From Candidatus Raymondbacteria bacterium RIFOXYA2_FULL_49_16 (GTDB taxonomy: Bacteria; Fibrobacterota; OXYB2-FULL-49-7; XYB2-FULL-49-35), in contig MFYT01000081.1 of assembly GCA_001789205.1 (NCBI GenBank), forward strand, positions 6,681 to 31,819: DNA of 25,139 nt. Reading direction: 5' to 3'. The position numbers and the translations under genes are program-made. Positions 1,824 to 22,673 of this stretch are shown here, one piece after another. The notes under the pieces are model-generated. The model was given only the letters and a program-made list of their open reading frames with translations, did no database searches and had not been told where the DNA came from. The stretch's first letter is position 1, and each line of letters begins with the position of its first letter.

Positions 1824-3638
1824 ATGAAACACCTGATATTCACCGATAATGACCAAGGCGGCGTTATCCTGGTCGCCAATATCAAGGGTGGCGTGGGAAA
1901 ATCGACCATTGCCACAAATCTCGCTTCAAGTTTCGCATCGCGCGGACCAACGCTTCTCATAGACCTTGATGTTCAGGGCAGCGCAACATCTGCCCTGGGA
2001 AAAAACCCTACCTCATTCAAGAAAACCAGCGCTCTCCTCTTAAAACAGCGCTTTTACCCCAAAGAAACCCTTGCTCCCTCAAAATTGACCACAACGCTTT
2101 TTGGGCGGACCAGAAATCGATTCAACACCCTTCTGCTTGGCAGAAACAGCGATATTACCAAGGTCGCGGTTAATATCATGCCTGGTCTCGACCTCATTCC
2201 CGCAAATACCAATCTCTTTTTCAAACTCAAGCACAAACACATAAAGAATCTCATCTTTTCCCTCGACGTGTGCAGGGAATACTACAAATACGTTGTCATT
2301 GATACAGCCTCAATCTGGGACGATATGATCAAGGCTCTCTTTATCGCCTCGGACATAAATCTGGTCCCCGTGACCCTCAATGCGCTGGCCACAAAGAGCC
2401 TGAAAACCTACGCGAATGAAATCGGAAAACTGATTAAAAAAAATCCGCATATCAACGTCCGTATCGTGAAAAACGAGGTGTATGGCACGCGTTCAACCAC
2501 CAACACCGGAAAGATCCGGACAATGAACGAAAACCGCACCTTTCTCCATTCGCTCTTCGAATCCTTCTCAAAGGCGCCGGAAAGCGGTGTCTTTACCCTG
2601 CCCCGTTCAATTGTACTCAACCTGGAAATTCCTGAAAGTTCGGTCATCCGCCATGCGCAAGACAGCGGCATAAGCCTCAATCAGCTCAAAGCAACTGGCC
2701 TGTTAAAAAAAGCCTTTGGCCAGCTTACAGATTCTATCCAGTATATCCTGAACAGAGTCGCCGCTGAAAAAATGGAAAAGAGACCCTGGTATTACGCGTT
2801 TGTCCGCGAACGTCTGAAAAGCTTTGCCAAAGCGGCGATCTTCCTTTTCATAGTGCTGCGCGGCGCAAGCCTTTTCAACGGCGAAACCCCTGCGGTCAGC
2901 ACGCCCTCAATGCTCGAAAAAACATACATTGCGCCAATCGCGCATGAATTCAAGGACAACGAGTCTCTCTATCAGATCGCAAAATACGCCATATCAGAAT
3001 ACCGGGCCATGGTGCCCTCAAGCGGCGATATTGATCGATACGTAAATGAAATGGTCACCATTCATAACCTCACCGCCCACCAGACCCGCCAGTCCATGAT
3101 CAGAAACAACGGCTATATTGAACGGGGTACAACCCTCACCTTTTATCCCCCTGCGTTCATTCACAACAAAAACTACGAAGTAGACAGGGAAATATTCGCC
3201 TACTATAAAACCCTTGTCGAGGACGAGCACCCCTATATCACTGGTTTGTGGTGTGAACGGGGCCTTGGCGGCGGCGAACCCCACACAGGCGTTGATATCG
3301 CCTGCAGGCTTGGCAGCAGGATCATATCGCCAATCGACGGCATTGTAAGAACCGAGACAAACGGCCGCGGCGGTAACATGGTGGTCATCCACAAGGACGA
3401 TTTTGTCCTCCTGTTCGCCCATATGGACCAACGGTTTGTCAAACAAGGTGACAGGGTAAGAAAAGGCCAAGTCATCGGCACCGTGGGACTTACTGGTGTC
3501 ACCTCCGGGCCCCACGTCCATTTCGGATATGGCATCCGTTCCCCAAAAGACCCGCAGCGTTTCGAATATATTGACCCCAACAATTTCATTTTCAGGCAGA
3601 ATTTTTATAGCGACAAGCTGAGCGCAGCCGGATTCTGA
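1824..3638 (+). CDS. ParA/MinD-like ATPase fused to LysM-like and M23 peptidase domains
   Basis: This is a 604-residue multidomain protein. Residues 14-310 form a ParA/MinD-type ATPase: deviant Walker A KGGVGKST (21-28), Walker A' LLIDLDVQGS (44-53), LDLIPAN (122-128), and Walker B VVIDTAS (157-163), with TAS in place of the usual TPP. Basic residues (316-336) precede a hydrophobic stretch at about 334-351, which I read as one membrane segment interrupted by Arg346. Residues 373-440 look LysM-like (ESLYQIAK ... RGTTLTFYP). Residues 470-590 are an M23 (LytM) zinc endopeptidase with HTGVD (His487, Asp491), His533 and PHVH (His564, His566), so its catalytic set is complete. The inferred topology is ATPase in the cytoplasm and hydrolase in the periplasm. 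The ATG at 1824 lacks a Shine-Dalgarno, but an in-frame stop at 1788 leaves no other ATG. lptD follows after 8 nt. Confidence 0.88.
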   Translation: MKHLIFTDNDQGGVILVANIKGGVGKSTIATNLASSFASRGPTLLIDLDVQGSATSALGKNPTSFKKTSALLLKQRFYPKETLAPSKLTTTLFGRTRNRFNTLLLGRNSDITKVAVNIMPGLDLIPANTNLFFKLKHKHIKNLIFSLDVCREYYKYVVIDTASIWDDMIKALFIASDINLVPVTLNALATKSLKTYANEIGKLIKKNPHINVRIVKNEVYGTRSTTNTGKIRTMNENRTFLHSLFESFSKAPESGVFTLPRSIVLNLEIPESSVIRHAQDSGISLNQLKATGLLKKAFGQLTDSIQYILNRVAAEKMEKRPWYYAFVRERLKSFAKAAIFLFIVLRGASLFNGETPAVSTPSMLEKTYIAPIAHEFKDNESLYQIAKYAISEYRAMVPSSGDIDRYVNEMVTIHNLTAHQTRQSMIRNNGYIERGTTLTFYPPAFIHNKNYEVDREIFAYYKTLVEDEHPYITGLWCERGLGGGEPHTGVDIACRLGSRIISPIDGIVRTETNGRGGNMVVIHKDDFVLLFAHMDQRFVKQGDRVRKGQVIGTVGLTGVTSGPHVHFGYGIRSPKDPQRFEYIDPNNFIFRQNFYSDKLSAAGF

Positions 3639-3646
3639 TCCCCGTT

Positions 3647-6226
3647 ATGCCCGCGCATCTGCTCCACCCACGCAGAAAACTCATGGCAGTCTGTCTGTGC
3701 GTCCTTGTTCTGGCATACGCGGGAACAGCCTTTGCGGCAGAGGGGCAGGGACCGCCGGATTCAACCCTGAAAGCCGACTCGTCCGGCCGGCAAACAGCGG
3801 CCGTTCACGATACCATCGCCTATGCGGCGGACAAGATAATATACAACAATAATGACAGTTTGCTCATGCTTCTTGGCAACGCGGAACTCAGCCAGGAAGG
3901 TATGAAACTTAAGGCCGATACCATCCTTTTTCACACAAACACCAGGATACTCGAGGCCATGGGGACCCCTATTCTCGACCAGGGCGCTGAATCGGTGAAT
4001 GGCGAAAGCATGACATACGATATGAACACGAAAAAGGGAAAGGTTCGGTACGGTACCGCCCGGTCAAAAGGCGATGTGTACAACGGCGCGGAGATCGGCC
4101 GTATGGAAGACGCCACATTCCTTGTACGCAACGGCGACTATTCGACCTGTGACATCGACACCGCCCCCCATTATTTCTTCTTCAGTAAAAACATGAAGAT
4201 GATCCCGGGCGATAAGATTATCGCAAAACCAGTGGTGCTTAACATTGGTGACGCGCCAGTGGGCGTGCTCCCCTTTTTCATATTCCCGACAAAAAAGGGA
4301 CGCTGTTCGGGCCTGCTCACGCCGCGGTGGGGCGAATTTCCGGAAAATGGCAACCGGGCGTCCTACCTGAACAACGTGGGATATTACTTCGCCATAAACG
4401 ATTATACCGACCTCGAGACCAAAGTCGATTTCACCAACGGCGATGGCTTCTTTTTCAAACGCATCTACCTGGATAACAGATTTGCCTACAACAAACGCTA
4501 CTGGCTCAATGGCAATATTAACGGACGTTTCGACCTTTCCCGTTCCGACAATACCCAATCGCAAAACTATGGATTGAGCTATTCGCACAACCAAAATCTC
4601 TTTTACCCTGATGGGTCTTTTTACATGCGCGGTTCTGGTGAAATTGTCGGCAACAGCAGCTATTACCGGAAAAGTACGCTCGACCGCGAAGATTACCTTA
4701 AAAGACAGCTCACTTCCAACATGGCCATTGTGAGACAATGGAAAGAAGCGGGAATCACGGCAAATACTGATTTCAAGTACGAGGAAGACCTGGACAGCAA
4801 AGAAAACAAGCTCAGTCTGCCCTCGTTCAGCGTTTCGTCGGTGCAACGCCCTCTCTCAGTCCTCGCGGCGCCATTCATGAAAGAACGCGAGAACGATGTG
4901 AGCGTACCGCCTGACAGCCAGCCTTGGTACGAAAAGATTAAATTCGGATACGGCGCCAGGGGAATCAACCGGAAAGAAAGGGTGCGAGAGCGGCGGTATA
5001 ATCTCATCGATACCGCCTACGACACTTCATATGTCATGCGGAACAATCAGGCAATGGACATGCGGCACGACCTCTCCTTTTCAATTTCCCCTTCGCCGCG
5101 TGTCTCATATATAAACATCAGTCCCCGGCTCTCCCTGGCCAGCAACTGGTTTTTCAAGGAACGAACGCAAACAGGCATCGCCGCAATCAGCGAACGCAGG
5201 TATTACAATTCAGCCAAAGCGTACGATACAGTCTATACGTGGGACACACTGCCTGGTATCAATTTCAACCACCGCGAGGAATTCAGCACCGGCCTTGACC
5301 TGGGCACCCAGCTCTATGGCATTGCCATGCTGAACCTGGGGCCGCTCATTGGCTTCAGGCATACCTTTCAGCCGTCGGTGGGCTATACCTTCAGCCCCAA
5401 ACTGGAGGGTGGAGAACGGTATATCTCGGCAGGCACGGCCAACAGTGGCAACAGGGACGAACAGCAGCGCATTGATTTCAGGGCAAACAACACCTTTCAG
5501 ATGAAGGTTGCCGGCGATCCTGAAGCGGAAAATCCAAAGGACAAGACGATCAGCCTGATGAACCTGAATCTTTCGACCGGGTACAACTTTGCCGCAAAAC
5601 CCGGCACACGCAAACTGGGCGACCTCCAAAGCTCTGCTTCTACCAACCTCTACTCGCTGCAGTTGAGTTATAGTGGCAGCCACACTTTTTATGATGATAA
5701 TGACAACCTGCTCTGGTCGCAGGCAGACGCTTCTCTTGTGAAACGCCTACCCAGCCTCCGCTCCCTGCGCCTCTCAGCTTCAACTGGCGCCCAGCTTTCA
5801 GGCACTTTTTCAAACGGACTGGTCGATATAAAGACACTGCTGCCCGATACCGCTAAAATGAATCCTTGGAATTTTGCGGCAAATTTCGGCTATTCATACA
5901 GCTCCTCTTACAATACGACCTTTAAGGTCTTTGAAAAAAGCACCACCTTTTCCTTGCGCGATCAGTTTACACTGAATTTTACCGACAACTGGCGCGTCTC
6001 CTATTCCAGCCGCTACGACTTTGAAAACAACGAATTAACAGAACAAAGCATGGATCTTTTGAGAAATTTCCATTGCTGGGAAGCGAACTTTCATTGGATC
6101 ATCAATGGGTATAGGGCAGGATATTATCTGAGAATAAATATCAAAGAAATACCCGATATAAAGATTGAGAAACGGGGCGGCGAAGCCGGAGGCATGCTGT
6201 TTCCCGGTCAGGGATATTACTATTAA
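3647..6226 (+). CDS. lptD: LptD-like outer-membrane LPS assembly protein
   Basis: This 859-residue exported protein matches LptD, the outer-membrane beta-barrel that inserts lipopolysaccharide into the outer leaflet. A signal peptide is clear: basic LHPRRK, a hydrophobic core at about 12-26, and cleavage near AFAA/EG (about 31). Residues 55-135 form an OstA/LptA-like beta-jellyroll (AYAADKIIYNNNDSLLMLLG ...). Next comes the family block GDYSTCDID ... PHYFFFSKNMKMIPGDKIIAKPV (about 163-200) and LLTPRWGEFPENG. The remainder is rich in alternating aromatic/polar strands typical of a barrel. The C-terminal LRINIKEIPDIKIEK resembles the FCB-type LptD ending. The start has no clear Shine-Dalgarno; Met13 is the alternative start. 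Spacing of 8 nt from the ParA-M23 gene suggests a shared transcript. Only isolated cysteines are visible, so the E. coli disulfide scheme is not obviously conserved. Confidence 0.88.
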   Translation: MPAHLLHPRRKLMAVCLCVLVLAYAGTAFAAEGQGPPDSTLKADSSGRQTAAVHDTIAYAADKIIYNNNDSLLMLLGNAELSQEGMKLKADTILFHTNTRILEAMGTPILDQGAESVNGESMTYDMNTKKGKVRYGTARSKGDVYNGAEIGRMEDATFLVRNGDYSTCDIDTAPHYFFFSKNMKMIPGDKIIAKPVVLNIGDAPVGVLPFFIFPTKKGRCSGLLTPRWGEFPENGNRASYLNNVGYYFAINDYTDLETKVDFTNGDGFFFKRIYLDNRFAYNKRYWLNGNINGRFDLSRSDNTQSQNYGLSYSHNQNLFYPDGSFYMRGSGEIVGNSSYYRKSTLDREDYLKRQLTSNMAIVRQWKEAGITANTDFKYEEDLDSKENKLSLPSFSVSSVQRPLSVLAAPFMKERENDVSVPPDSQPWYEKIKFGYGARGINRKERVRERRYNLIDTAYDTSYVMRNNQAMDMRHDLSFSISPSPRVSYINISPRLSLASNWFFKERTQTGIAAISERRYYNSAKAYDTVYTWDTLPGINFNHREEFSTGLDLGTQLYGIAMLNLGPLIGFRHTFQPSVGYTFSPKLEGGERYISAGTANSGNRDEQQRIDFRANNTFQMKVAGDPEAENPKDKTISLMNLNLSTGYNFAAKPGTRKLGDLQSSASTNLYSLQLSYSGSHTFYDDNDNLLWSQADASLVKRLPSLRSLRLSASTGAQLSGTFSNGLVDIKTLLPDTAKMNPWNFAANFGYSYSSSYNTTFKVFEKSTTFSLRDQFTLNFTDNWRVSYSSRYDFENNELTEQSMDLLRNFHCWEANFHWIINGYRAGYYLRINIKEIPDIKIEKRGGEAGGMLFPGQGYYY

Positions 6227-6281: not shown

Positions 6282-6797
6282 ATGAAATATATATTCGTTG
6301 CGGCGCTATTTTCGGGCATGCTTTTTATGCTGTTTGCACAGGAGAAAAAACAGGAACCCGCCTACGTGGGTCCGGGCAAGTGTAAAATGTGCCACAATGC
6401 AAAAGCCAAGGGAGAACAGTATGCCAAATGGCAGGGTGAAAAGCACTCCAAGGCCTTTCAGACCCTGCAGGGCGAAGAAGCCGCGGCGCTGGCGAATAAA
6501 ATGAAAATCGTGGACGCGTCAACAGATCCAAAGTGCCTCAAATGCCATATCACCGACGCTTTCATACAGAAAGATGGCGTGTCGTGCGAAACCTGTCATG
6601 GACCGGGAAGTCTTTATAAAACAATGCCCGTCATGAAAGACAAGAAAAAAGCCATGGAACTCGGGCTCATAGAACCCGCGAAGGAACTGTGCGTCAAATG
6701 CCACAATCCAGAAAGCCCCACGTATAAGCCCTTCACATACGAAGATGCAATCAAAATCGTCATGCATCCCAATCCGCAGCGCAAAAAAGAGGAATGA
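6282..6797 (+). CDS. Tetraheme c-type cytochrome, cytochrome c554-like, exported
   Basis: This 171-residue protein has a signal sequence (residues 1-19, cleavage near FA/QE) and four CxxCH heme-binding motifs: CKMCH (34-38), CLKCH (85-89), CETCH (102-106) and CVKCH (137-141). His55, in the EKHSKAF segment, is a plausible distal ligand of the kind seen in the cytochrome c554 family. It should act in the periplasm as an electron carrier or small reductase subunit; its partner is not visible here. A strong AAGGAGA Shine-Dalgarno precedes the ATG. A 5-bp stem followed by a T-run (about 6233-6256) lies just upstream and could weakly terminate lptD transcription. The stop codon overlaps the region of the yedF-like start, which indicates one operon with the next two genes. 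Confidence 0.88.
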   Translation: MKYIFVAALFSGMLFMLFAQEKKQEPAYVGPGKCKMCHNAKAKGEQYAKWQGEKHSKAFQTLQGEEAAALANKMKIVDASTDPKCLKCHITDAFIQKDGVSCETCHGPGSLYKTMPVMKDKKKAMELGLIEPAKELCVKCHNPESPTYKPFTYEDAIKIVMHPNPQRKKEE

Positions 6798-6799
6798 AT

Positions 6800-7405
6800 A
6801 TGGAACGGCTTGTTGATGCGCGCGGAATGCTTTGCCCCAAACCACTCATTCTGACTAAAAAGGCCCTTATGTCCGCGGACCAGGGCGACACGCTGAAAAT
6901 CCTCATCGACAACGAGACGTCAAAAAACAATGTCGCGCGTTTTCTCGCTGACAACATGCTACCACCAATAATCTCAGAGGCAAACGGCGTCTTCACCCTT
7001 TTTGCTGCGGTAAAAAAAGGCTCTTTAGCCCAACCCGATGCCGAAAGCTACTGCGCCGTTTCTTCCGTAAAACCCCCTGTTGTTCTGGTCTCGGGAAACA
7101 CCATTGGCAAGGGTTCAGACGAACTGGGAGCAGTGCTTGCAAAAGGTTTCATCAACACGATCAAAGAGGTCTCGCCCCTGCCCCAGGCGGTCATTTTAAT
7201 CAACAGCGGTGTCCTTCTCGCGTGCGAAGGTTCGTCTCTTATCGAACCGCTGAAAGAACTGGAAGCCAAGGGGGTCAAGGTGCTCTGCTGCGGCACATGT
7301 GTTGATTTTTTCAACAAAAAAAACGCCCTGCGTACAGGCGTCATTTCAAACGCGTATGACATCCTGACCCTTCTTTCTCAGGCAGGCCATGTCATCCCAT
7401 TATGA
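6800..7405 (+). CDS. yedF: YedF-like sulfurtransferase-type selenium metabolism protein
   Basis: The N-terminal ~70 residues form a TusA/SirA-like domain with the CPxP motif (Cys12-Pro15 from this start), the persulfide or selenide carrier site of that family. The C-terminal ~110 residues are DsrE-like and carry the CCGTCVDFF motif (about residues 163-171) expected in the two-domain YedF proteins linked with selenium metabolism. An ATG at 6794 overlaps the cytochrome stop, but GAGGA at 6789-6793 is ideally spaced for the ATG at 6800, so I chose 6800 (201 residues). The gene overlaps the next one by four bases (ATGA). No selD or selA is in the window, so the selenium link rests on family knowledge. 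Confidence 0.83.
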   Translation: MERLVDARGMLCPKPLILTKKALMSADQGDTLKILIDNETSKNNVARFLADNMLPPIISEANGVFTLFAAVKKGSLAQPDAESYCAVSSVKPPVVLVSGNTIGKGSDELGAVLAKGFINTIKEVSPLPQAVILINSGVLLACEGSSLIEPLKELEAKGVKVLCCGTCVDFFNKKNALRTGVISNAYDILTLLSQAGHVIPL

Positions 7406-7629
7406 ACAACACCTGCATTGCGCTGCTTGGGTCAACCCGCGCCACCATGGCATGTGAAGAGCTCTGTCTTGCGGCAGGCGTTCAGTGCGCCATTGTCCCG
7501 GTTCCCCGAGAAATTACCGCGGAATGCGGCGTGGCCCTGGAAGCCGCCCGGGCAGACCAGTCCCGAATACAATCCCTGTGTGAAAACGCTGGCTTTGCCC
7601 CGCAATTCTTCCACAGGTACGAATCCTAG
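7402..7629 (+). CDS. DUF3343 putative Se/S carrier-like protein
   Basis: This 75-residue protein matches the DUF3343 pattern, which has been annotated as a putative selenium/sulfur carrier-like domain. The hallmarks are an N-terminal beta strand with a small-residue turn (CIALLGSTRATMACEELC), then VPVPREITAECGVALE, where PRxIxxxCGxALE is the conserved core, and a short C-terminal element. The Cys of ECGVA (residue 42) is the likely functional thiol. It starts inside the yedF-like stop (ATGA overlap), so translation should be coupled, and the pairing of YedF with DUF3343 is a known association. Its stop lies 9 nt from the stop of the convergent regulator, and no terminator is evident in that gap. 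Confidence 0.78.
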   Translation: MNNTCIALLGSTRATMACEELCLAAGVQCAIVPVPREITAECGVALEAARADQSRIQSLCENAGFAPQFFHRYES

Positions 7630-7638
7630 AAAGACCCG

Positions 7639-8988
7639 CTACAGCTGTATTCCGTGTTCCTTGATCTTGCGCCAGAGCGTTGTGCGTGAAAGACCCAATT
7701 GCTGGGCGGTCGCGGACTGGTTGTTGTCGTGGCGTTGGAGCACGCGCGCAATGTGCCGTTTTTCCAGCTCGTTGAGGCTGAGCAGTTCCTCCTCCACTTC
7801 GCCGGACTTTGAGCCAATGAGAGGCCGATTAATAATGATATTTTTTGGAAGATCGTCAGGGTTGATTACCCCTCCCTCGGCCATGACTACTCCGCGCTCA
7901 ATGATGTTTTCGAGTTCGCGGATGTTTCCCGGGAAAGAATAGCCCTGAAGCAATGCCATGGCGTGCGGATCAACGACCGGCGGTTTTTTATCGAGCAGTG
8001 TGGCGTATTTGATAATGAAAAACGGTATAAGCTTGGCGATATTGGCCTTGCGCTCGCGCAATGGCGGCAGGTTGATATGGATCACATTGAGCCGGTAAAA
8101 CAGGTCTTCCCTGAAAGTACCTTTCTGAACATTGGCGGCAAGGTCCTGGTTTGTGGCCGCGATAATGCGCACATCGACCACCTTGGACTCGTTTCCGCCC
8201 ACCATGCGCACACTATGGTCCTGGAGAAACCTGAGGAGCTTGACCTGGGCGCTGGGTTGCAGCTCACCCACTTCATCAAGAAAAAGCGTGCCCTGATTGG
8301 CCTCTTCGACAAGCCCCTTTTTCTGGAACGCGGCCCCGGTAAAAGCGCCCTTTACATGGCCGAATAACTCGCTTTCAATCAGGTTCTCGGGAATGGCGCC
8401 GCAATTGACCGCCACAAAAGGGCCGTCGGCCCGTCTGCTTTTCATGTGGATATACCGCGCAAAGACCTCCTTGCCCGTGCCGCTTTCCCCGCTTACCAGC
8501 ACCGTGCTGTTGGTTTGGGCCACTTTGTCGGCCATGCCAATGGCACGCATCATCTTATCATCGTCTCCGACAAGGTCCCGCATAAGCCGGGTCTGCGACT
8601 CGAGGTACTTGAGGTCTTTTTCCTGGCGGATGGTGATTTTTTCAATGACCAGCGTTACATCATCGGCATGCACGGGTTTGACCAGATAGAGATAGGCGCC
8701 GTGCCGTACCGCGCGCGTCGCCAGTTCAATGTCGTCGATAGTGGTGAGCACCACGATCTCGCACCCCGCCATGTTCACCTTGATGTAACTGATGAGGTCG
8801 AGTTCATTCTCGCATGTCTCGGTAATATTAATGATGACAATGCTGATTTGTCCGCGTCCCAGGATCTTGAGCGCGTCAGCGGCGTTGGTCGCGTCGAGAA
8901 ACGTGTAGCCCTCGTGGTGGATATTGTTGACGATTTCCTCACGGATGGTGCGGTCCGGATCGACTATGAGTATCTTTTTCGTTTCCAT
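7639..8988 (-). CDS. NtrC-family sigma54-dependent regulator with Asp-less receiver
   Basis: This 449-residue protein has the NtrC layout: receiver (1-120), AAA+ sigma54 activation domain (about 140-375) and a Fis-type helix-turn-helix (about 405-449). The AAA+ part looks active: Walker A GESGTGKE (167-174), the sigma54-contacting GAFTGA loop (214-219), Walker B TLFLDEVGEL, and an arginine-finger region ending FREDLFYRL. The receiver keeps Asp10 and Asp12, Thr82 and Lys104-Pro105, but the phosphoacceptor position reads IIN54I, so Asp is replaced by Asn. Classical phosphorylation is therefore unlikely. It follows dnaJ with a one-base gap on the same strand, which implies cotranscription with chaperones. 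No partner kinase is in the window. Targets are unknown. Confidence 0.9.
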   Translation of the reverse strand: METKKILIVDPDRTIREEIVNNIHHEGYTFLDATNAADALKILGRGQISIVIINITETCENELDLISYIKVNMAGCEIVVLTTIDDIELATRAVRHGAYLYLVKPVHADDVTLVIEKITIRQEKDLKYLESQTRLMRDLVGDDDKMMRAIGMADKVAQTNSTVLVSGESGTGKEVFARYIHMKSRRADGPFVAVNCGAIPENLIESELFGHVKGAFTGAAFQKKGLVEEANQGTLFLDEVGELQPSAQVKLLRFLQDHSVRMVGGNESKVVDVRIIAATNQDLAANVQKGTFREDLFYRLNVIHINLPPLRERKANIAKLIPFFIIKYATLLDKKPPVVDPHAMALLQGYSFPGNIRELENIIERGVVMAEGGVINPDDLPKNIIINRPLIGSKSGEVEEELLSLNELEKRHIARVLQRHDNNQSATAQQLGLSRTTLWRKIKEHGIQL

Positions 8989-8989
8989 A

Positions 8990-10156
8990 TCAGCTGAAGA
9001 ATTTCTTCGCCTTTCGTAAAAAACCCGCGCCCTCGCCGCTGGCCTTTGTCTGATTGATCTCTTTTAGCTTCCGATAGAGATCGCGCTCTTCGGACGAAAG
9101 CCTTTTAGGCGTGCCCACGTGGATTTTGACCAATATATCGCCACGGTACCGGTTGTTGTTCACCTCAGGCAGGCCTTTTTCGCGCATGCGCAGGACCGAC
9201 TCTGATTCCGTGCCAGCGGCAATGGTGAGTTTAATCTTGCCGTCCAGTGTGTCGAGGACAATTTCGTCACCAAGCGCCGCCTGGGGCATTGAAATTTCGA
9301 GTTCGCAGACAAGGTCCTGACCATGACGTTCAAAAAATTCGTGCGGTATCTCCTCGATAATCACGATAAGATCGCCCGCCTGCCCGCCGCGCGCTCCCGC
9401 ATCCCCCTGTCCGCGGAGCGGAATATAGTTTCCCTCTGCAACGCCCGCTGGAATTTTAACGGAAATAGTGGATTCAGTACGCAACAGGCCATCGCCGCCG
9501 CATTCGCTGCATTTATTGGAAATGACTTCTCCGGTTCCATTACATGCGGAACAAGCCCCAACGTTCACCATCTGTCCAAAAAGGGACTGTGTGACCCGAC
9601 GGACCTGGCCCGATCCACCGCAGGTAGAACAGGTGCGCGCACCGCTGCCTCCCTTGCCTCCGCAATGGGAGCAATGCTCACGCTTCTTGTATTTTATTTT
9701 TTTGCTGGTACCGGTGTTTATTTCCTCAAGCGTCAGATGGACAGTTACCTGCAGGTCGCTCCCGCGGTTTGACCCGCCTCCCCTGCCTCCTCGCCTGCGC
9801 GATCCGCCGAAAAAGTCGGAGAAAAAGGAATCGCCGCCAAAATCGTTCATAAAAGCGCGCAAAGCGTCTGAAATATCAAACCCATCGGCCCCGCCCGCAA
9901 AACCTCCGCCCCAGCCGCCATGGCCCGCGCCAAACGCGGCATGGCCAAACTGGTCATACTTTTTGCGCTTGTCAGGGTCTTTGAGCACTTCGTAGGCTTC
10001 GGTGGCTTCCTTAAAACGCTCTTCAGCGCTTTTATCACCCTTGTTTTTGTCAGGGTGATATTTTATCGCCAGCTTGCGGTAGGCGTTCTTGATGCTCTCT
10101 GTGTCGGCATCTTTGCCAACACCGAGAACTTCGTAGTAATCGCGTTTCTCAGCCAT
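8990..10156 (-). CDS. dnaJ: Chaperone DnaJ (type I Hsp40)
   Basis: This 388-residue co-chaperone stimulates DnaK ATPase activity and delivers substrates in the cytoplasm. The J domain occupies residues 1-70 with the HPD tripeptide at 34-36. A Gly/Phe-rich linker (about 73-130) contains the DISDALRAFMNDFGGDSFF segment. Four CxxCxGxG-type zinc repeats follow (CSHCGGKG, CSTCGGSG, CSACNGTG, CSECGGDG), and then the substrate-binding beta-sandwich domains. All type I parts are intact. The start ATG shares one base with the dnaK stop (TAATG), which is classical translational coupling. The regulator gene begins one base after the dnaJ stop. Confidence 0.97.
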   Translation of the reverse strand: MAEKRDYYEVLGVGKDADTESIKNAYRKLAIKYHPDKNKGDKSAEERFKEATEAYEVLKDPDKRKKYDQFGHAAFGAGHGGWGGGFAGGADGFDISDALRAFMNDFGGDSFFSDFFGGSRRRGGRGGGSNRGSDLQVTVHLTLEEINTGTSKKIKYKKREHCSHCGGKGGSGARTCSTCGGSGQVRRVTQSLFGQMVNVGACSACNGTGEVISNKCSECGGDGLLRTESTISVKIPAGVAEGNYIPLRGQGDAGARGGQAGDLIVIIEEIPHEFFERHGQDLVCELEISMPQAALGDEIVLDTLDGKIKLTIAAGTESESVLRMREKGLPEVNNNRYRGDILVKIHVGTPKRLSSEERDLYRKLKEINQTKASGEGAGFLRKAKKFFS

Positions 10157-12102
10157 TACTTATCGTCCATTACTTCAAAATCAGCATCGACCGCGCCATC
10201 CTTCTTTTTCCCGTCCTTTTTTGGCTCGTCCTGCTGGGGGGCTTCCTGGCCTGCCTGCGCATCCGGGCCGGGTTGAGGCCCTGACTGTGCGCCCTGGGCA
10301 TGTTTGTACATCTCTTCAGCTATTTTATGCGATGCCTGGGTAAGCTCCTCTACTGCCGTGTTAATAACGGCAGGATCTTCGCCCTTCACCGCCTCTTTGA
10401 CCTTGGCAACAGCCTCTTCAATTTTCTTACGGTCGCCTTCTGAGACCTTGTCGCCCAGTTCCTTGAGGGACTTCTCTGTCGCATAGACAAGCTGTTCAGC
10501 CTTGTTCTTCGCGTCGATCTTTTCCCTGGCCTTTTTGTCCTCTGAGGCGTGCGCCTCAGCGTCTTTGACCATGCGCTGAATTTCAGCCTCGGAAAGACCT
10601 GACGACGATTCGATTCGTATTTTCTGTTCCTTGCCCGAGGCGAGGTCCTTTGCCGATACATTGACAATACCGTTTGCGTCAATATCAAAGGTGACCTCGA
10701 TCTGCGGCACCCCGCGCGGCGCAGGCGGAATACCCAGGAGGTCGAACCGGCCCAATGTCCGGTTGTAGACCGCCATTTCGCGTTCGCCCTGGAGCACATG
10801 GATTGAAACCGCGTTCTGATTGTCCTCAGCGGTGGAGAAGACCTGGCTCTTTTTCGTGGGAATAGTTGTCCCCTTGTCAATTAGTTTGGTCATGACGCCG
10901 CCAAGTGTCTCAATACCCAGAGAAAGAGGCGTAATGTCGAGAAGCAACACATCTTTCACAGCATCGTCGCCGCTCAGAATACCGCCCTGGATGGCCGCGC
11001 CCACGGCAACCACTTCGTCCGGGTTGACGCTCTTGTTGGGCTCTTTCTGGAACAACTCCTTCACCTTTTCCTGGATGCATGGCACGCGGGTAGAGCCACC
11101 CACCAAAAGAACCTCTGAGATATCAGACACTGAAACACCCGCGTCTTTTATTGCCTGCTTGCAGGGGCCAACAGACCGTTCGACTAGGTGCGCAATGAGT
11201 TGCTCGAATTTCGCCCGTGTAAGCCCGATATCAAGATGCTTTGGCCCGCTTGCATCGGCAGTGATAAAGGGCAGGTTGATGGTTGTTTGCATGGTTGAGG
11301 AGAGTTCGATTTTCGCGCGTTCTGCAGCCTCCTTGAGGCGCTGGAGCGCTATGCGGTCCTTGCGCAGGTCTATACCCTCGGTCTTCTGGAATTCCTGAGC
11401 AAGAAAATCTATGACAACCTGGTCAATATCATCGCCGCCCAGATGCGTATCGCCATTGGTCGATTTGACTTCAAAAACGCCCTCTCCGATCTCAAGAACG
11501 GAGATGTCAAACGTACCGCCGCCAAAATCGTAGACAGCTACAATTTCATTCTTCTTTTTCTTGTCAAGACCATAGGCAAGCGCCGCGGCCGTGGGTTCGT
11601 TCACGATGCGAAGCACTTCGAGCCCGGCTATACGGCCAGCGTCCTTGGTTGCCTGACGCTGAGCATCGTTAAAATATGCCGGAACCGTTACGACAGCCTG
11701 CTTGACCTCTTCGCCAAGGTAATCCTCAGCGGTCTTCTTCATTTTCTGAAGGATCATTGCTGAAATTTCAGGCGGGGTGTATTCCTTGCCTCCTGTCCCG
11801 ACTTTGACCAGTTCGTTGGGACCGCCAACGATTTTATATGGCACCAGTTTTTCTTCAGAAGCAACCTCGTTGTGGCGACGACCCATAAAACGTTTGATTG
11901 AATAGACTGTATTTTCCGGATTGGTGACTGCCTGTCGTTTTGCGGTTTGGCCAACGAGGATTTCGCCGTTTTTTGCAAAACCAACTACCGAAGGGGTAGT
12001 TCGACTTCCTTCTGAGTTTGCGATAACAACAGGTTTGCCGCCTTCCATGATGGCTACACACGAATTCGTGGTGCCAAGGTCGATTCCAATTACTTTTGCC
12101 AT
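10156..12102 (-). CDS. dnaK: Chaperone DnaK (Hsp70)
   Basis: This is a full-length 648-residue Hsp70. The nucleotide-binding domain shows [13 protein letters not shown] at residues 6-18, [15 protein letters not shown] and the GGGTFDIS phosphate-binding loop. The substrate-binding domain and an acidic/Gln-Pro-rich tail ending in [10 protein letters not shown] follow, as is usual in bacterial DnaK. A strong AAAGGAG Shine-Dalgarno lies 6-7 nt before the ATG. A 120-bp AT-rich gap, with overlapping inverted repeats, separates it from grpE, whereas its 3' end overlaps dnaJ by one base. It works with GrpE and DnaJ, all encoded here, in de novo folding and stress recovery. Confidence 0.98.
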
Positions 12103-12145
12103 ATTTTCTCCTTTTTAATTATTACATACTAAAATTCAAACAATA

Positions 12146-12178
12146 ATATGCAAAGATAATACCATCATGCATATCTTT
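12146..12178 (-). promoter_or_regulatory. Overlapping alternative inverted repeats in the dnaK leader
   Basis: Two perfect inverted repeats overlap in the grpE-dnaK gap: AAAGATA (12152-12158) with TATCTTT (12172-12178), and ATATGC (12146-12151) with GCATAT (12169-12174). Because they share bases 12172-12174, the two hairpins cannot form together on the dnaK leader RNA. Both stems are AT-rich and would be weak. They lie about 40 nt upstream of the dnaK Shine-Dalgarno. The repeats are seen; a regulatory role is only a suggestion. Confidence 0.3.
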
Positions 12179-12222
12179 ATATTTGATAATGAAAAATAGA
12201 TTATTTGGAGGAGTGAAGAAAA

Positions 12223-12801
12223 CTAATTGTTTCCTTTTGAAACAACTACTTTTGCATATTGAAGCACTTTAGTATTAAGGACATAGCCCTTTTGGAGCAC
12301 CCGGACAATATGGTGTTCGGGTATGTCGGCCGAAGCTTCCTGCATTACAGCCTCGTGTTTCTCAGGATTGAACTCATCGCCTATTGGATTATCTTCCTTG
12401 AGGCCTGCCTGGCGCAAAATATCGAAAAACTGATTGTAGATCATCTCAACGCCCTTGAAAAGCTTTTCAGTTTCAGGCGTATTGTGGTCAGGATGTATTG
12501 CGCGCTCAAAATTCTCCAGTACCGGGAGGATATTCGAGACTATTTCCTCGTTTGCCGTGGAAATAAGATTCACTGTCTCACGTGCAGTCCGTTTCTTGTA
12601 GTTATCGAACTCGGCAAGCAGCCGTAAACGCGCGTCTTTAAGCCCCTGGTTATCTTCCTTGAGCTTCTCGATCTCCTCGGCAAGCTCCTGCTCTTTGGTC
12701 TTCTTCTCAGGCTCAGCATGTACTTCAGACTCGACTTGATCCTTGGTTTCTGCCTCAATCTTAACCTCAGCCTCAACCTTTTCTTTTTTTATATCTTCCA
12801 T
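12223..12801 (-). CDS. grpE: GrpE nucleotide exchange factor
   Basis: This 192-residue GrpE promotes ADP release from DnaK. The first ~60 residues are highly charged (Glu/Lys-rich) and run into the long dimerisation helix (KEQELAEEIEKLKEDNQGLK). The C-terminal beta-domain carries the family core GVEMIYNQFFDILRQAGL, then NPEKHEAV and VLQKGYVLNTKVLQYAKVVV. The length is typical. It starts 13 nt after the hrcA stop with only a weak AGGGA-type ribosome site, which points to cotranscription with hrcA. Confidence 0.95.
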   Translation of the reverse strand: MEDIKKEKVEAEVKIEAETKDQVESEVHAEPEKKTKEQELAEEIEKLKEDNQGLKDARLRLLAEFDNYKKRTARETVNLISTANEEIVSNILPVLENFERAIHPDHNTPETEKLFKGVEMIYNQFFDILRQAGLKEDNPIGDEFNPEKHEAVMQEASADIPEHHIVRVLQKGYVLNTKVLQYAKVVVSKGNN

Positions 12802-12814
12802 AGGTGTGTCCCTG

Positions 12815-13852
12815 TTAATGTACGAATCTATCTGTTAAAAACCGCGCGGTATAATCGACCAGTGAAATAAGCCGTTCGTATTGCATGCGCGGCGGCCCCA
12901 TAATGCCCAAAGTTCCTTTAATACCGCTAATACCGCCAATGGAATAATTCGCTGTAACAATACTGTATTGTTCGAGATTGTCTTCTGTATTTTCTTCTCC
13001 GATAGTAATATACACGCCATCTTTCATGCGTTTCTCTAGGGGGGAAACAAGGAGTTCTTTTCTTTCAAGAAGCCCGATTACCGAACCAACCCTCTCCAGC
13101 GTGGAAAACTCGGGTTGAGAGACAATATTTGAAGTACCTTCGACATGGATGATTTTTTTATCAGGAAAATCAAAAAGGTCGCGCGCATTGTCGACAAAGA
13201 GCCGTACAGCGGAAATAGTCTTGGAATCTTCAGTGCGTACAATCTCTTCGAGCCGTTCCTTGATTTCAGAGAGCTGCTTCCCCTCAAGCCGTTCATTGAT
13301 AAAAGCGCAGGCCCTCTCAAGTTCCTTTTCATCGTAAACGGATTTTATTTCGCAAGTGACCGTATTCACCAACCCGGATTCGATTGCCAGCACAAGCAGA
13401 ATGTTTTTTTCTGAAAGCGGCACAATATCGAGTTTTTTAAAAACACCTTTGTAGAAACGCGGGGCAAGCACCAATCCCAATTCGGCGGACATGGACGAAA
13501 GAAGCTTGGCTGTTGCTGAGGTTATTTCCTCAACGCTGCTCACCAAACTGCTGCAGGTCCCATCCACTTCACCCTGCTCCTTGGTAGAAAGCCCGGCTAT
13601 CTCTATTAAGTAATCAACATAATATCGATAGCCCCTGTTCGTTGGTATGCGACCTGCTGAGGTGTGGGGTTGGGAAACATACCCCTTTTCTTCAAGGTCT
13701 GTGATAATATTCCTGATTGAAGCCGGACTGAGCATAAGCCCGCTCTTGCGTGAGACCGTGCGCGAGCTGGTAGGTTCGGCTGAAGATATATAATCGCGAA
13801 CCAATGTCTGAAGCACGCAGGATTCGCGGTCATTGAGCTTTTCTGTTTCCAT
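12815..13852 (-). CDS. hrcA: Heat-inducible transcription repressor HrcA
   Basis: This 345-residue protein is the repressor that binds CIRCE operators and needs GroEL for activity. The N-terminal winged helix (residues 1-75) shows the family pattern SAEPTSSRTVSRKSGLMLSP followed by SIRNIITDLEEKGYVSQPHTSAGRIPTNRGYRYYVDYL. The C-terminal GAF-like domain ends with GISGIKGTLGIMGPPRMQYERLISLVDYTA. It lies directly downstream of the groEL terminator hairpin with no visible promoter of its own, so expression may depend on readthrough. Its target, a CIRCE element, sits upstream of groES in this window. Confidence 0.96.
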   Translation of the reverse strand: METEKLNDRESCVLQTLVRDYISSAEPTSSRTVSRKSGLMLSPASIRNIITDLEEKGYVSQPHTSAGRIPTNRGYRYYVDYLIEIAGLSTKEQGEVDGTCSSLVSSVEEITSATAKLLSSMSAELGLVLAPRFYKGVFKKLDIVPLSEKNILLVLAIESGLVNTVTCEIKSVYDEKELERACAFINERLEGKQLSEIKERLEEIVRTEDSKTISAVRLFVDNARDLFDFPDKKIIHVEGTSNIVSQPEFSTLERVGSVIGLLERKELLVSPLEKRMKDGVYITIGEENTEDNLEQYSIVTANYSIGGISGIKGTLGIMGPPRMQYERLISLVDYTARFLTDRFVH

Positions 13853-13874
13853 GAATGCCCAGGATTGAAAGAAA

Positions 13875-13907
13875 GGGTTCCCGCGGATTTTGGCCCTGCG
13901 GGAACCC
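13875..13907 (-). terminator. Hairpin terminator / attenuator after groEL
   Basis: A perfect 10-bp stem (GGGTTCCCGC at 13875-13884 and GCGGGAACCC at 13898-13907) with a 13-nt loop lies 25 nt beyond the groEL stop. On the minus strand it is followed by TTTCTTTC, a broken U-tract. It most likely ends or attenuates the groESL transcript before hrcA. Confidence 0.75.
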
Positions 13908-13932
13908 GATATTGACTGTTTCCGGGGCCGGC

Positions 13933-15612
<1,680 letters not shown>

Positions 15613-15625
15613 TTATGGTTTTTGA

Positions 15626-15907
15626 TTAAATCTTAGCGAGAACATCGCTCTCGCGCAGGATCAGATACTCTTTTCCTTCGACTGTGATTTCGGTGCCGGA
15701 ATATTTTCCATAGAGCACCTTGTCGCCAACCTTGAGTTCCATTTCGATCTTTTTGCCGTCTTCGAATTTTCCCGGACCAACAGCAACGATTTCGCCTTCC
15801 TGGGGCTTTTCCTTGGCATTGTCGGGAATGATAATGCCACCGGCAGTTTTGCTCTCTGCCTCAAGCGCTTTCACGACCACTCGGTCTGCTAACGGTTTCA
15901 CCTTCAT
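15626..15907 (-). CDS. groES: Co-chaperonin GroES (Hsp10)
   Basis: This 93-residue co-chaperonin caps GroEL. It shows [10 protein letters not shown] at the start, the mobile-loop region with TAGGIIIPD (residues 21-29), [10 protein letters not shown] and [17 protein letters not shown] strong AGGAGG Shine-Dalgarno lies 5-6 nt before the ATG. It is the first gene of the groESL transcript, with promoter and CIRCE operator immediately upstream. Confidence 0.98.
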
Positions 15908-16093: not shown

Positions 16094-16432
16094 TTAGCTA
16101 CCGACAATCTCATTCAGGCCATCAATTATCTGTTCTAAGATAGGATCTGAGACGTGACCAAGCTTGCTTCCGAGCCTTTCTAAAGAAAGGGTCCTGACTT
16201 GGCTAATCTTGACCCATGACTCCTTGGGTAATTCTTTCTTTCCCAGATGAAAGGTAAGCGGAAACCCGGCCCTTTGGGCCTGGCTGGTAATTGCAAGCGC
16301 GATGACAGTACCGGATCGTTCGTTAAAAACGTCTTGACTGATTACAATAACTGGTCGATGGCCAGCCTGTTCGCTTCCCCTGACAGGATTCAGATCTGCC
16401 CAATAAATATCGCCCCTTAATATTTTTCCCAT
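16094..16432 (-). CDS. MazF/PemK-family toxin (endoribonuclease)
   Basis: This 112-residue protein has the MazF/PemK fold signature: RGDIYWADLNPVRGSEQAGHRPVIVIS (residues 5-31), then ALAITSQAQRAGFPLTF and the conserved WVKISQVRTLSLERLGSKLG. These toxins are sequence-specific mRNA interferases. The GSEQAGHRPVIV segment carries the catalytic arginine of the family, and nothing looks degenerate. Its start overlaps the antitoxin 3' end by 16 nt, so translation is probably coupled. The cleavage specificity cannot be predicted from this view. Confidence 0.9.
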   Translation of the reverse strand: MGKILRGDIYWADLNPVRGSEQAGHRPVIVISQDVFNERSGTVIALAITSQAQRAGFPLTFHLGKKELPKESWVKISQVRTLSLERLGSKLGHVSDPILEQIIDGLNEIVGS

Positions 16433-21728: not shown

Positions 21729-22673
21729 ATGTATTCAATATTACCATTTATTTGTTTAACAATCATATTCCTGGAGTGCTCTTTTTCTTTTAACGTCTCT
21801 GGCATTACCTCGAGTGGGGCTAGCTATTATTTGGATGAATATTTAAATCCTACAGATAGAAATGATCCGGATATCACCTATTTGTTTTATCCTTTTATGA
21901 ACTATATCCAGATATATGTAGAGGATGATGGGTCTCGATCCTTGACTACGACTGACATTCAAAACGTAACGCAACTTGCCTGTGCTGAGTGGGCAACTAC
22001 TGGCTATTTTAATTTCTGGGATGTTATCATACAAAACGTTGATCCAATCGTATCTTCGGGTACCGACAGACAATTAACAATTGCTTTTGATGCAGATGGA
22101 TATATTGATGGTCAAGAATTACCTATCGCAGAAACGTTCCCAAACTTTAATACCATGTGGATGTCAAAAGGACAATTATACTGTGATATTATTTTAAACG
22201 ACACCTATACGTTCTCTTTAACAACCATGAATCAAGCTGCCAATATTATTGATTATCAAAGTGTTATAACGCATGAACTCGGGCATCTATTAGGAGCTGG
22301 ACACTCAGATATAAACCAGAATGATGTTTCGAATTTTTCTGATTTGCCTACTATGGCAGATCCCGGAGAGCCAGAAAATACCTCTATGCGAACGACTACA
22401 ATTGCCCGTACGATTAGTGCCGATGATATCAACTGTATGAGGTTTCTGTATGGAAAATTATACGTACCCAAAATGTATGCCTCGCTATATAATGCGGCAC
22501 AGGCTGCCATAGGAGTTCAAGATATCTATGCTTCTGAAAATGTAGTACTGGATGCAGGTAATCTTATTCTAACAGACAACGTAAATGTTACTATTGAGGA
22601 CAATCTTGCCATTGACTTGGATATATTTTACCTTAAATGTGGTCTCAATGGCACAATTACATTTAGGAAATAA
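21729..22673 (+). CDS. Matrixin (M10A-like) metalloprotease, C-terminus frameshifted
   Basis: This 314-residue exported zinc protease has AAGGAG before the ATG and a signal peptide (residues 1-20). The zinc site HELGHLLGAGH (residues 182-192) is the full HExxHxxGxxH metzincin motif, with a Met-turn candidate at Met209 (PTMADPG). The catalytic domain ends near YGKLY (about 240). After it comes beta-repeat sequence (ASENVVLDAGNLILTDNVNVTIEDN) that stops abruptly at TAA 22671-22673. The same repeat style resumes at once in the +1 frame. Removing one A from 22668-22670 joins the two frames as TITFRN-NVNISTYYG, so the gene was probably one long matrixin plus beta-helix protein. Confidence 0.85.
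   Translation: MYSILPFICLTIIFLECSFSFNVSGITSSGASYYLDEYLNPTDRNDPDITYLFYPFMNYIQIYVEDDGSRSLTTTDIQNVTQLACAEWATTGYFNFWDVIIQNVDPIVSSGTDRQLTIAFDADGYIDGQELPIAETFPNFNTMWMSKGQLYCDIILNDTYTFSLTTMNQAANIIDYQSVITHELGHLLGAGHSDINQNDVSNFSDLPTMADPGEPENTSMRTTTIARTISADDINCMRFLYGKLYVPKMYASLYNAAQAAIGVQDIYASENVVLDAGNLILTDNVNVTIEDNLAIDLDIFYLKCGLNGTITFRK

Follow-up and report, generated by a model that had tools for sequence, protein, structure and literature searches.

We identified in the Fibrobacterota a conserved and apparently undescribed type of protein that, as its sequence and structural models indicate, joins a ParA-type ATPase and a wall-cutting enzyme in one chain across the membrane. The DNA analyzed, termed here the window, is a stretch of 25,139 nt from contig C81 of a 5.43-Mb genome with a completeness estimate of 100%. 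The fusion gene (positions 1824 to 3638 of the window, plus strand) is a single ORF of 604 aa with no internal stops and codes, from the N to the C terminus, for a ParA-like ATPase domain, a predicted membrane helix, a LysM-like module, and an M23 domain; the Pfam cutoffs of both AAA_31 and Peptidase_M23 are far exceeded. An earlier note on this DNA had proposed this single-chain architecture, and the uninterrupted ORF, the Pfam domains, and 26 other full-length orthologues bear it out; at the level of sequence, we regard the architecture and its conservation as established. That note had further envisaged a novel covalent inside-to-outside device. Of this proposal, the arrangement is real, conserved, retains its catalytic residues in 27 genomes, and is undescribed in the literature searched, with subscription papers mostly lying outside the reach of that search; the coupling of inside to outside is a reading of the layout, under which the fusion would represent an unusual form of both the control of a periplasmic wall hydrolase from the cytoplasm and the positioning of a cargo by ParA/MinD proteins.

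The N-terminal half (residues about 10 to 316; positions 1854 to 2771) is a predicted ATPase domain of the ParA/Soj type, matched by Pfam AAA_31 over residues 14 to 210 (E = 8.2e-21; 75 bits against a cutoff of 27). Its deviant Walker A motif, KGGVGKST at residues 21 to 28, fits the KGGxGK[ST] signature of the ParA/MinD family, and the switch aspartates D47 and D49 and the Walker B aspartate D160 are likewise present. The residues named in the earlier note for the two domains lie where it had placed them, and K21, K26, D47, D49, and D160 are identical in all 27 full-length proteins. The TAS following Walker B, flagged there as a caveat, is indeed found in the window protein, with TPS being usual in the orthologues. 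In structural comparisons, the closest fold of the modeled ATPase half is that of Soj/ParA: 243 residues align with Helicobacter pylori Soj (6iub) with a Z score of 26.8 and an rmsd of 2.6. The NCBIfam profile eps_fam (TIGR01007) of BY-kinases scores 36.1 bits, below its family cutoff of 108. Together with the conserved residues, the sequence suggests that the predicted ATPase half might dimerize in an ATP-dependent manner and turn over ATP.

At the other end of the chain, an M23 endopeptidase domain (residues about 484 to 584; positions 3273 to 3575) is recognized by Pfam Peptidase_M23 over residues 486 to 569 (E = 1.4e-22; 80 bits against a cutoff of 28.7). H487, D491, H533, H564, and H566, which make up the HxxxD and HxH motifs and the third histidine, are identical in 27 of 27 full-length proteins, and the claim of a catalytically complete domain thus holds as far as sequence can tell. 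By analogy to LytM, H487, D491, and H566 would be the zinc ligands and H533 and H564 the catalytic residues. The modeled fold is closest to those of endopeptidases and LytM domains, with StM23, ShyA, DipM, and Csd3 matched at Z scores of 15 to 16 (up to 16.2), and the domain is accordingly predicted to be a peptidoglycan hydrolase of the DD-endopeptidase type. Between it and the membrane, AlphaFold models show a predicted periplasmic module that contains an insertion (residues about 372 to 440; positions 2937 to 3143); the periplasmic part modeled alone reaches a pLDDT of 85.6 and a pTM of 0.81. The earlier note had called this region LysM-like. Residues 369 to 446 give weak matches to two LysM-type chains (Z = 5.5 to 5.7 over 53 to 55 residues), one of them 7vcm, whose matched part we take to be a LysM domain, and Pfam finds no LysM match there. 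The fold match being weak, a LysM-like identity, though plausible, is a lead.

The two halves are joined by a predicted single membrane helix (residues 333 to 351; positions 2820 to 2876), close to the hydrophobic stretch that had been noted at about residues 334 to 351. Its mean Kyte-Doolittle hydropathy is 1.72 in the window protein, and an equivalent segment occurs at the same place in all 27 orthologues (1.25 to 2.78). The mean net charge around this segment across the 27 is +1.8 on the N-terminal side and −0.1 on the C-terminal side, as expected for an N-in/C-out orientation. The AlphaFold model of the 604 residues (mean pLDDT, 76.6; pTM, 0.50) shows a Soj/ParA domain, a long helix (residues 292 to 345) that ends this domain and runs continuously into the membrane segment, about 15 residues after the span (352 to 366) that are predicted to be disordered (pLDDT below 50), and then the periplasmic domains. 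From these observations, we infer that the protein is bitopic, with a cytoplasmic N-terminal half and a periplasmic C-terminal half. The arginine at position 346 within the segment, another caveat raised earlier, is present and is unique to the window genome among the 27; K336 and R346 flank just nine uncharged residues in this protein. The membrane helix of the window member is therefore marginal by sequence, and it is here that the case for the topology is weakest.

A phylum-wide search of 167 genomes recovered the 26 further full-length orthologues, which come from seven families (f2 to f8) and align over nearly the whole length, as well as pieces of the fusion at contig ends. The window protein shares 34 to 44% pairwise identity with these orthologues and sits on a long end branch in the tree, marking it as a divergent member. 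Several Fibrobacterota genomes lack a fusion-type protein altogether. Searches at the level of genus, family, and class returned only the genome of origin, which is alone in its class among the genomes compared, and a single-sequence scan of genome contigs retrieved no relative of the fusion. A scan of named genomes with a profile built on the sequence that separates and flanks the domains yielded 24 loci, all titled Fibrobacterota (Chitinispirillia, Chitinivibrionia, and "Fibrobacter sp." metagenome-assembled genomes). No fusion outside the Fibrobacterota emerged from the named-genome scan, the reach of which is close relatives; because that scan rests on two short peptide patterns, distant fusions may exist elsewhere. 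Among plasmid records, none matches the fusion protein at 80% coverage. In close pairs of intact members, the ATPase part has a dN/dS of about 0.07 to 0.15, near that of the M23 part, and purifying selection on the ATPase is thus about as strong as that on the hydrolase.

A second branch of the family has a different history. In what is presumably the family Fibrobacteraceae (f10) and in family f9, the protein retains its membrane helix and LysM-like part together with an intact M23 site, and the N-terminal 150 to 240 residues contain no P-loop in any of 18 representatives. Profile comparison nevertheless aligns this region collinearly with the ParA domain (probability, 95; score, 61.9), against control scores of 14.9 for the reversed profile and 18.8 for the best of 30 column shuffles. 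Given this homology and collinearity, the region is most simply read as the remnant of an ATPase that has decayed. At about 0.16 to 0.22, its dN/dS lies above the 0.01 to 0.09 of the M23 part in these proteins; constraint on the pseudo-ATPase is relaxed yet still present. In f11 (genome G154), the protein lacks any ATPase and keeps the M23 domain. A tree of the C-terminal part places the 27 intact members on one side of a branch with support of 95/89 and the 18 pseudo-ATPase members on one side of another with support of 100/99. Intact ATPase, pseudo-ATPase, and no ATPase would form an evolutionary series within the phylum. With regard to loss of ligand-binding residues in relatives, which the earlier note had named as counting against its idea, the ATP-binding site has gone in part of the family, and the zinc site of the M23 domain has been kept. 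It follows from the loss of the P-loop in the Fibrobacteraceae and f9 that the use or cycling of ATP is not essential to every member.

In the window, the fusion gene is followed after 8 nt by lptD (positions 3647 to 6226, plus strand; Pfam LptD_2, E = 2.6e-67), which is involved in LPS assembly and with which it is probably cotranscribed. In the other loci examined, lptD is not adjacent. There, in nearly every case and in both clades, a same-strand gene coding for a protein of about 115 to 136 aa lies directly upstream, with a gap of usually −11 to +31 nt. One member is recognized by Pfam Response_reg (E = 1.7e-8), which led us to reject the upstream gene as a bactofilin; in the window, Pfam recognized no bactofilin next to the fusion. 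Asp occupies the phospho-acceptor position in 5 of 20 of these proteins and is replaced there by N or E in the other 15, which marks the product, on the evidence of its sequence, as a pseudo-receiver; conserved W, YF, and R residues were also observed (e.g., L066:5580-5927 and L050:6185-6589). The receiver-like gene occurs in 146 of 167 genomes of the phylum, some of them without the fusion, where other genes or no recognized partner follow it (in f12, it is followed by a methyltransferase-like gene), and it was not found in the window genome, which has the fusion. We therefore rejected a strict dependence on this gene and regard its product as a candidate partner that is not obligate; any role that it plays with the fusion would be inferred from these contexts.

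Several systems already encoded by these genomes have to be distinguished from the fusion. In the window genome, dnaA, mnmG, rsmG, parA, parB, an M23 gene whose product has a membrane segment, a bactofilin-like gene, and a DegP-like protease gene stand in a row on contig C54 (L078; G000:C54:8000-22000), with gene names assigned by eye from the translations. Because parA-parB form this separate locus beside mnmG-rsmG, the fusion is distinct from the chromosomal ParA, and the M23-bactofilin-like pair at the same place, a locus other than that of the fusion, led us to reject the fusion as a bactofilin-linked M23 protein. On contig C18 (L008; about 6769 to 8581), an FtsX gene adjoins a gene for a degenerate EnvC-like M23 protein (NNGID and GTKLHFE), apparently an ordinary FtsEX-EnvC-like arrangement. 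FtsX was found in 98 of 99 genomes of the phylum, on which ground a replacement of FtsEX by the fusion was rejected; the MinC C-terminal domain exceeds the cutoff in 1 of 99 and is essentially absent. With FtsEX present and MinC essentially absent, the fusion is an additional system.

FtsEX is an ABC ATPase made of several chains, and its partner EnvC is a catalytically dead activator. The fusion resembles this system in that a cytoplasmic ATPase is connected through the membrane with a periplasmic protein of the LytM/M23 fold, but it is a single chain with an ATPase of the ParA type and an intact M23 site, and it coexists with FtsX and an EnvC-like protein in the same genome. With ParA/Soj and MinD it shares the fold, the signature lysine, the switch aspartates, and Walker B; however, the known members of that family are soluble proteins or bind the membrane peripherally, and the cargoes that they move are separate molecules, whereas the fusion would make the ATPase an integral membrane protein that is joined covalently to a cargo on the outer side of the membrane. 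BY-kinases such as Wzc and CapAB also have a MinD/ParA-like P-loop domain joined, covalently or functionally, to a membrane protein that extends into the periplasm. In these, the membrane part is N terminal and the periplasmic module belongs to polysaccharide export, so the domain order is the reverse of that of the fusion, in which the periplasmic module is an M23 domain. The closest working precedent, by analogy, is LmdC of Hyphomonas and Rhodospirillum, a bitopic inner membrane M23 DD-endopeptidase with an intact zinc site that is recruited by a bactofilin through its cytoplasmic N-terminal tail (PMC10945521). Both proteins would be bitopic inner membrane M23 enzymes with a cytoplasmic N-terminal handle, the topology of the fusion being predicted. 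They differ in that LmdC combines a tail of about 38 aa with coiled coils and has a bactofilin gene next to its own, whereas the fusion has a whole ParA ATPase and a LysM-like linker.

On this precedent, the explanation that we favor, to which we assign just under an even chance, is that the fusion is a bitopic endopeptidase that is clustered or positioned through dimerization of its own cytoplasmic ATPase, in the way that LmdC is by bactofilin. With a ParA ATPase in the place of the LmdC tail, the hydrolase would be gathered or placed through ATP-dependent pairing and assembly. Upon ATP binding, the cytoplasmic domains might pair as ParA sandwich dimers, and the paired domains might assemble or bind a cytoplasmic landmark, whereby the tethered hydrolases would cluster at particular sites of the envelope. 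There, the LysM-like module could hold the wall while the M23 domain opens cross-links, and ATP hydrolysis, perhaps stimulated by a putative partner, would release the cluster. We prefer this explanation because the catalytic residues are invariant, the dN/dS of the ATPase is low, the helix is present in all orthologues, and the folds are those of Soj/ParA and M23; the receiver-like gene, missing in the window genome and present elsewhere without the fusion, counts against it, as do the loss of the P-loop in the Fibrobacteraceae and f9 and the marginal membrane helix of the window member.

Instead of being placed, the hydrolase might be switched. ATP-driven pairing and separation would then pass along a rigid helix (residues 292 to 345) and turn the M23 domain on and off in an FtsEX-like manner within one chain, as the continuous predicted helix between ATPase and membrane span and the joint conservation of ATPase and M23 catalytic residues in 27 genomes would allow. 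The predicted disorder just after the span argues against rigid transmission, however, and the pseudo-ATPase clade has kept a hydrolase whose active site is intact and which must work there without such a switch; we hold this version to be unlikely. Alternatively, the ATPase-derived domain might mainly dock onto a cytoplasmic landmark or the receiver-like neighbor, nucleotide use being secondary and lost in the Fibrobacteraceae: the pseudo-ATPase clade retains the domain under moderate constraint, and the receiver-like gene sits immediately before the M23 gene at almost every locus in either clade. Yet the ATPase catalytic residues are all invariant in the intact clade, a degree of conservation that docking alone would not require, and the window genome lacks the receiver-like gene; this reading, too, is unlikely.

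It is quite improbable that the Soj-like domain binds DNA nonspecifically, like ParA, and thereby confines wall cutting to, or excludes it from, membrane covered by the nucleoid. The closest fold is that of Soj, the phylum is essentially without MinC, and R213, K216, and K230 are invariant in the 27 orthologues, with R238 and R276 nearly so. The DNA-binding arginines of Soj, R189 and R218 (PMC3778016; see also PMC10120649), are nonetheless hard to place with confidence on the fusion: in the profile alignment, the R218 column is nonbasic, R276 is offset by two positions, and R238 follows an insertion. Finally, that the protein is an artefact of assembly or annotation, or stays in the cytosol without export, as Arg346 within the predicted membrane segment might be taken to suggest, is scarcely credible; the same full-length, single-ORF architecture in 26 other genomes rules out an assembly artefact, and the hydrophobic segment is found in all.

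Returning to an ATPase that positions the attached hydrolase, the broader proposition, which we advance tentatively and with less than even confidence, is that a ParA ATPase has here become an integral membrane protein with a built-in cargo, a one-protein, ATP-switched means of placing or gating wall hydrolysis that exists as a series within one phylum. A central problem, still open, is how wall hydrolases beyond the membrane receive spatial information from the cytoplasm, and the known answers, FtsEX-EnvC and bactofilin-LmdC, need several proteins; the fusion has both halves in one gene and can be tested by point substitutions. The Fibrobacter branch, in which the P-loop has gone and the rest has been kept, offers a natural control for the contribution of ATP. 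If the proposition is true, it would extend the ParA/MinD ATPases to integral membrane proteins.

The remainder of the window carries several further genes. A 203-aa protein in which TusA-like and DsrE-like domains are fused (positions 6794 to 7405) is encoded beside a multihaem cytochrome gene (6282 to 6797). On the minus strand, positions 7639 to 15585 hold a heat shock cluster comprising a GroEL-type chaperonin, HrcA, GrpE, DnaK, and DnaJ, followed by a sigma-54 response regulator (7639 to 8988). A PemK/MazF-like toxin gene (16094 to 16432, minus strand) lies near a 93-aa ORF on the same strand (15626 to 15907). A gene for a Matrixin-like (M10) metallopeptidase (21729 to 22673) is followed by a long low-GC stretch that extends to the end of the window.
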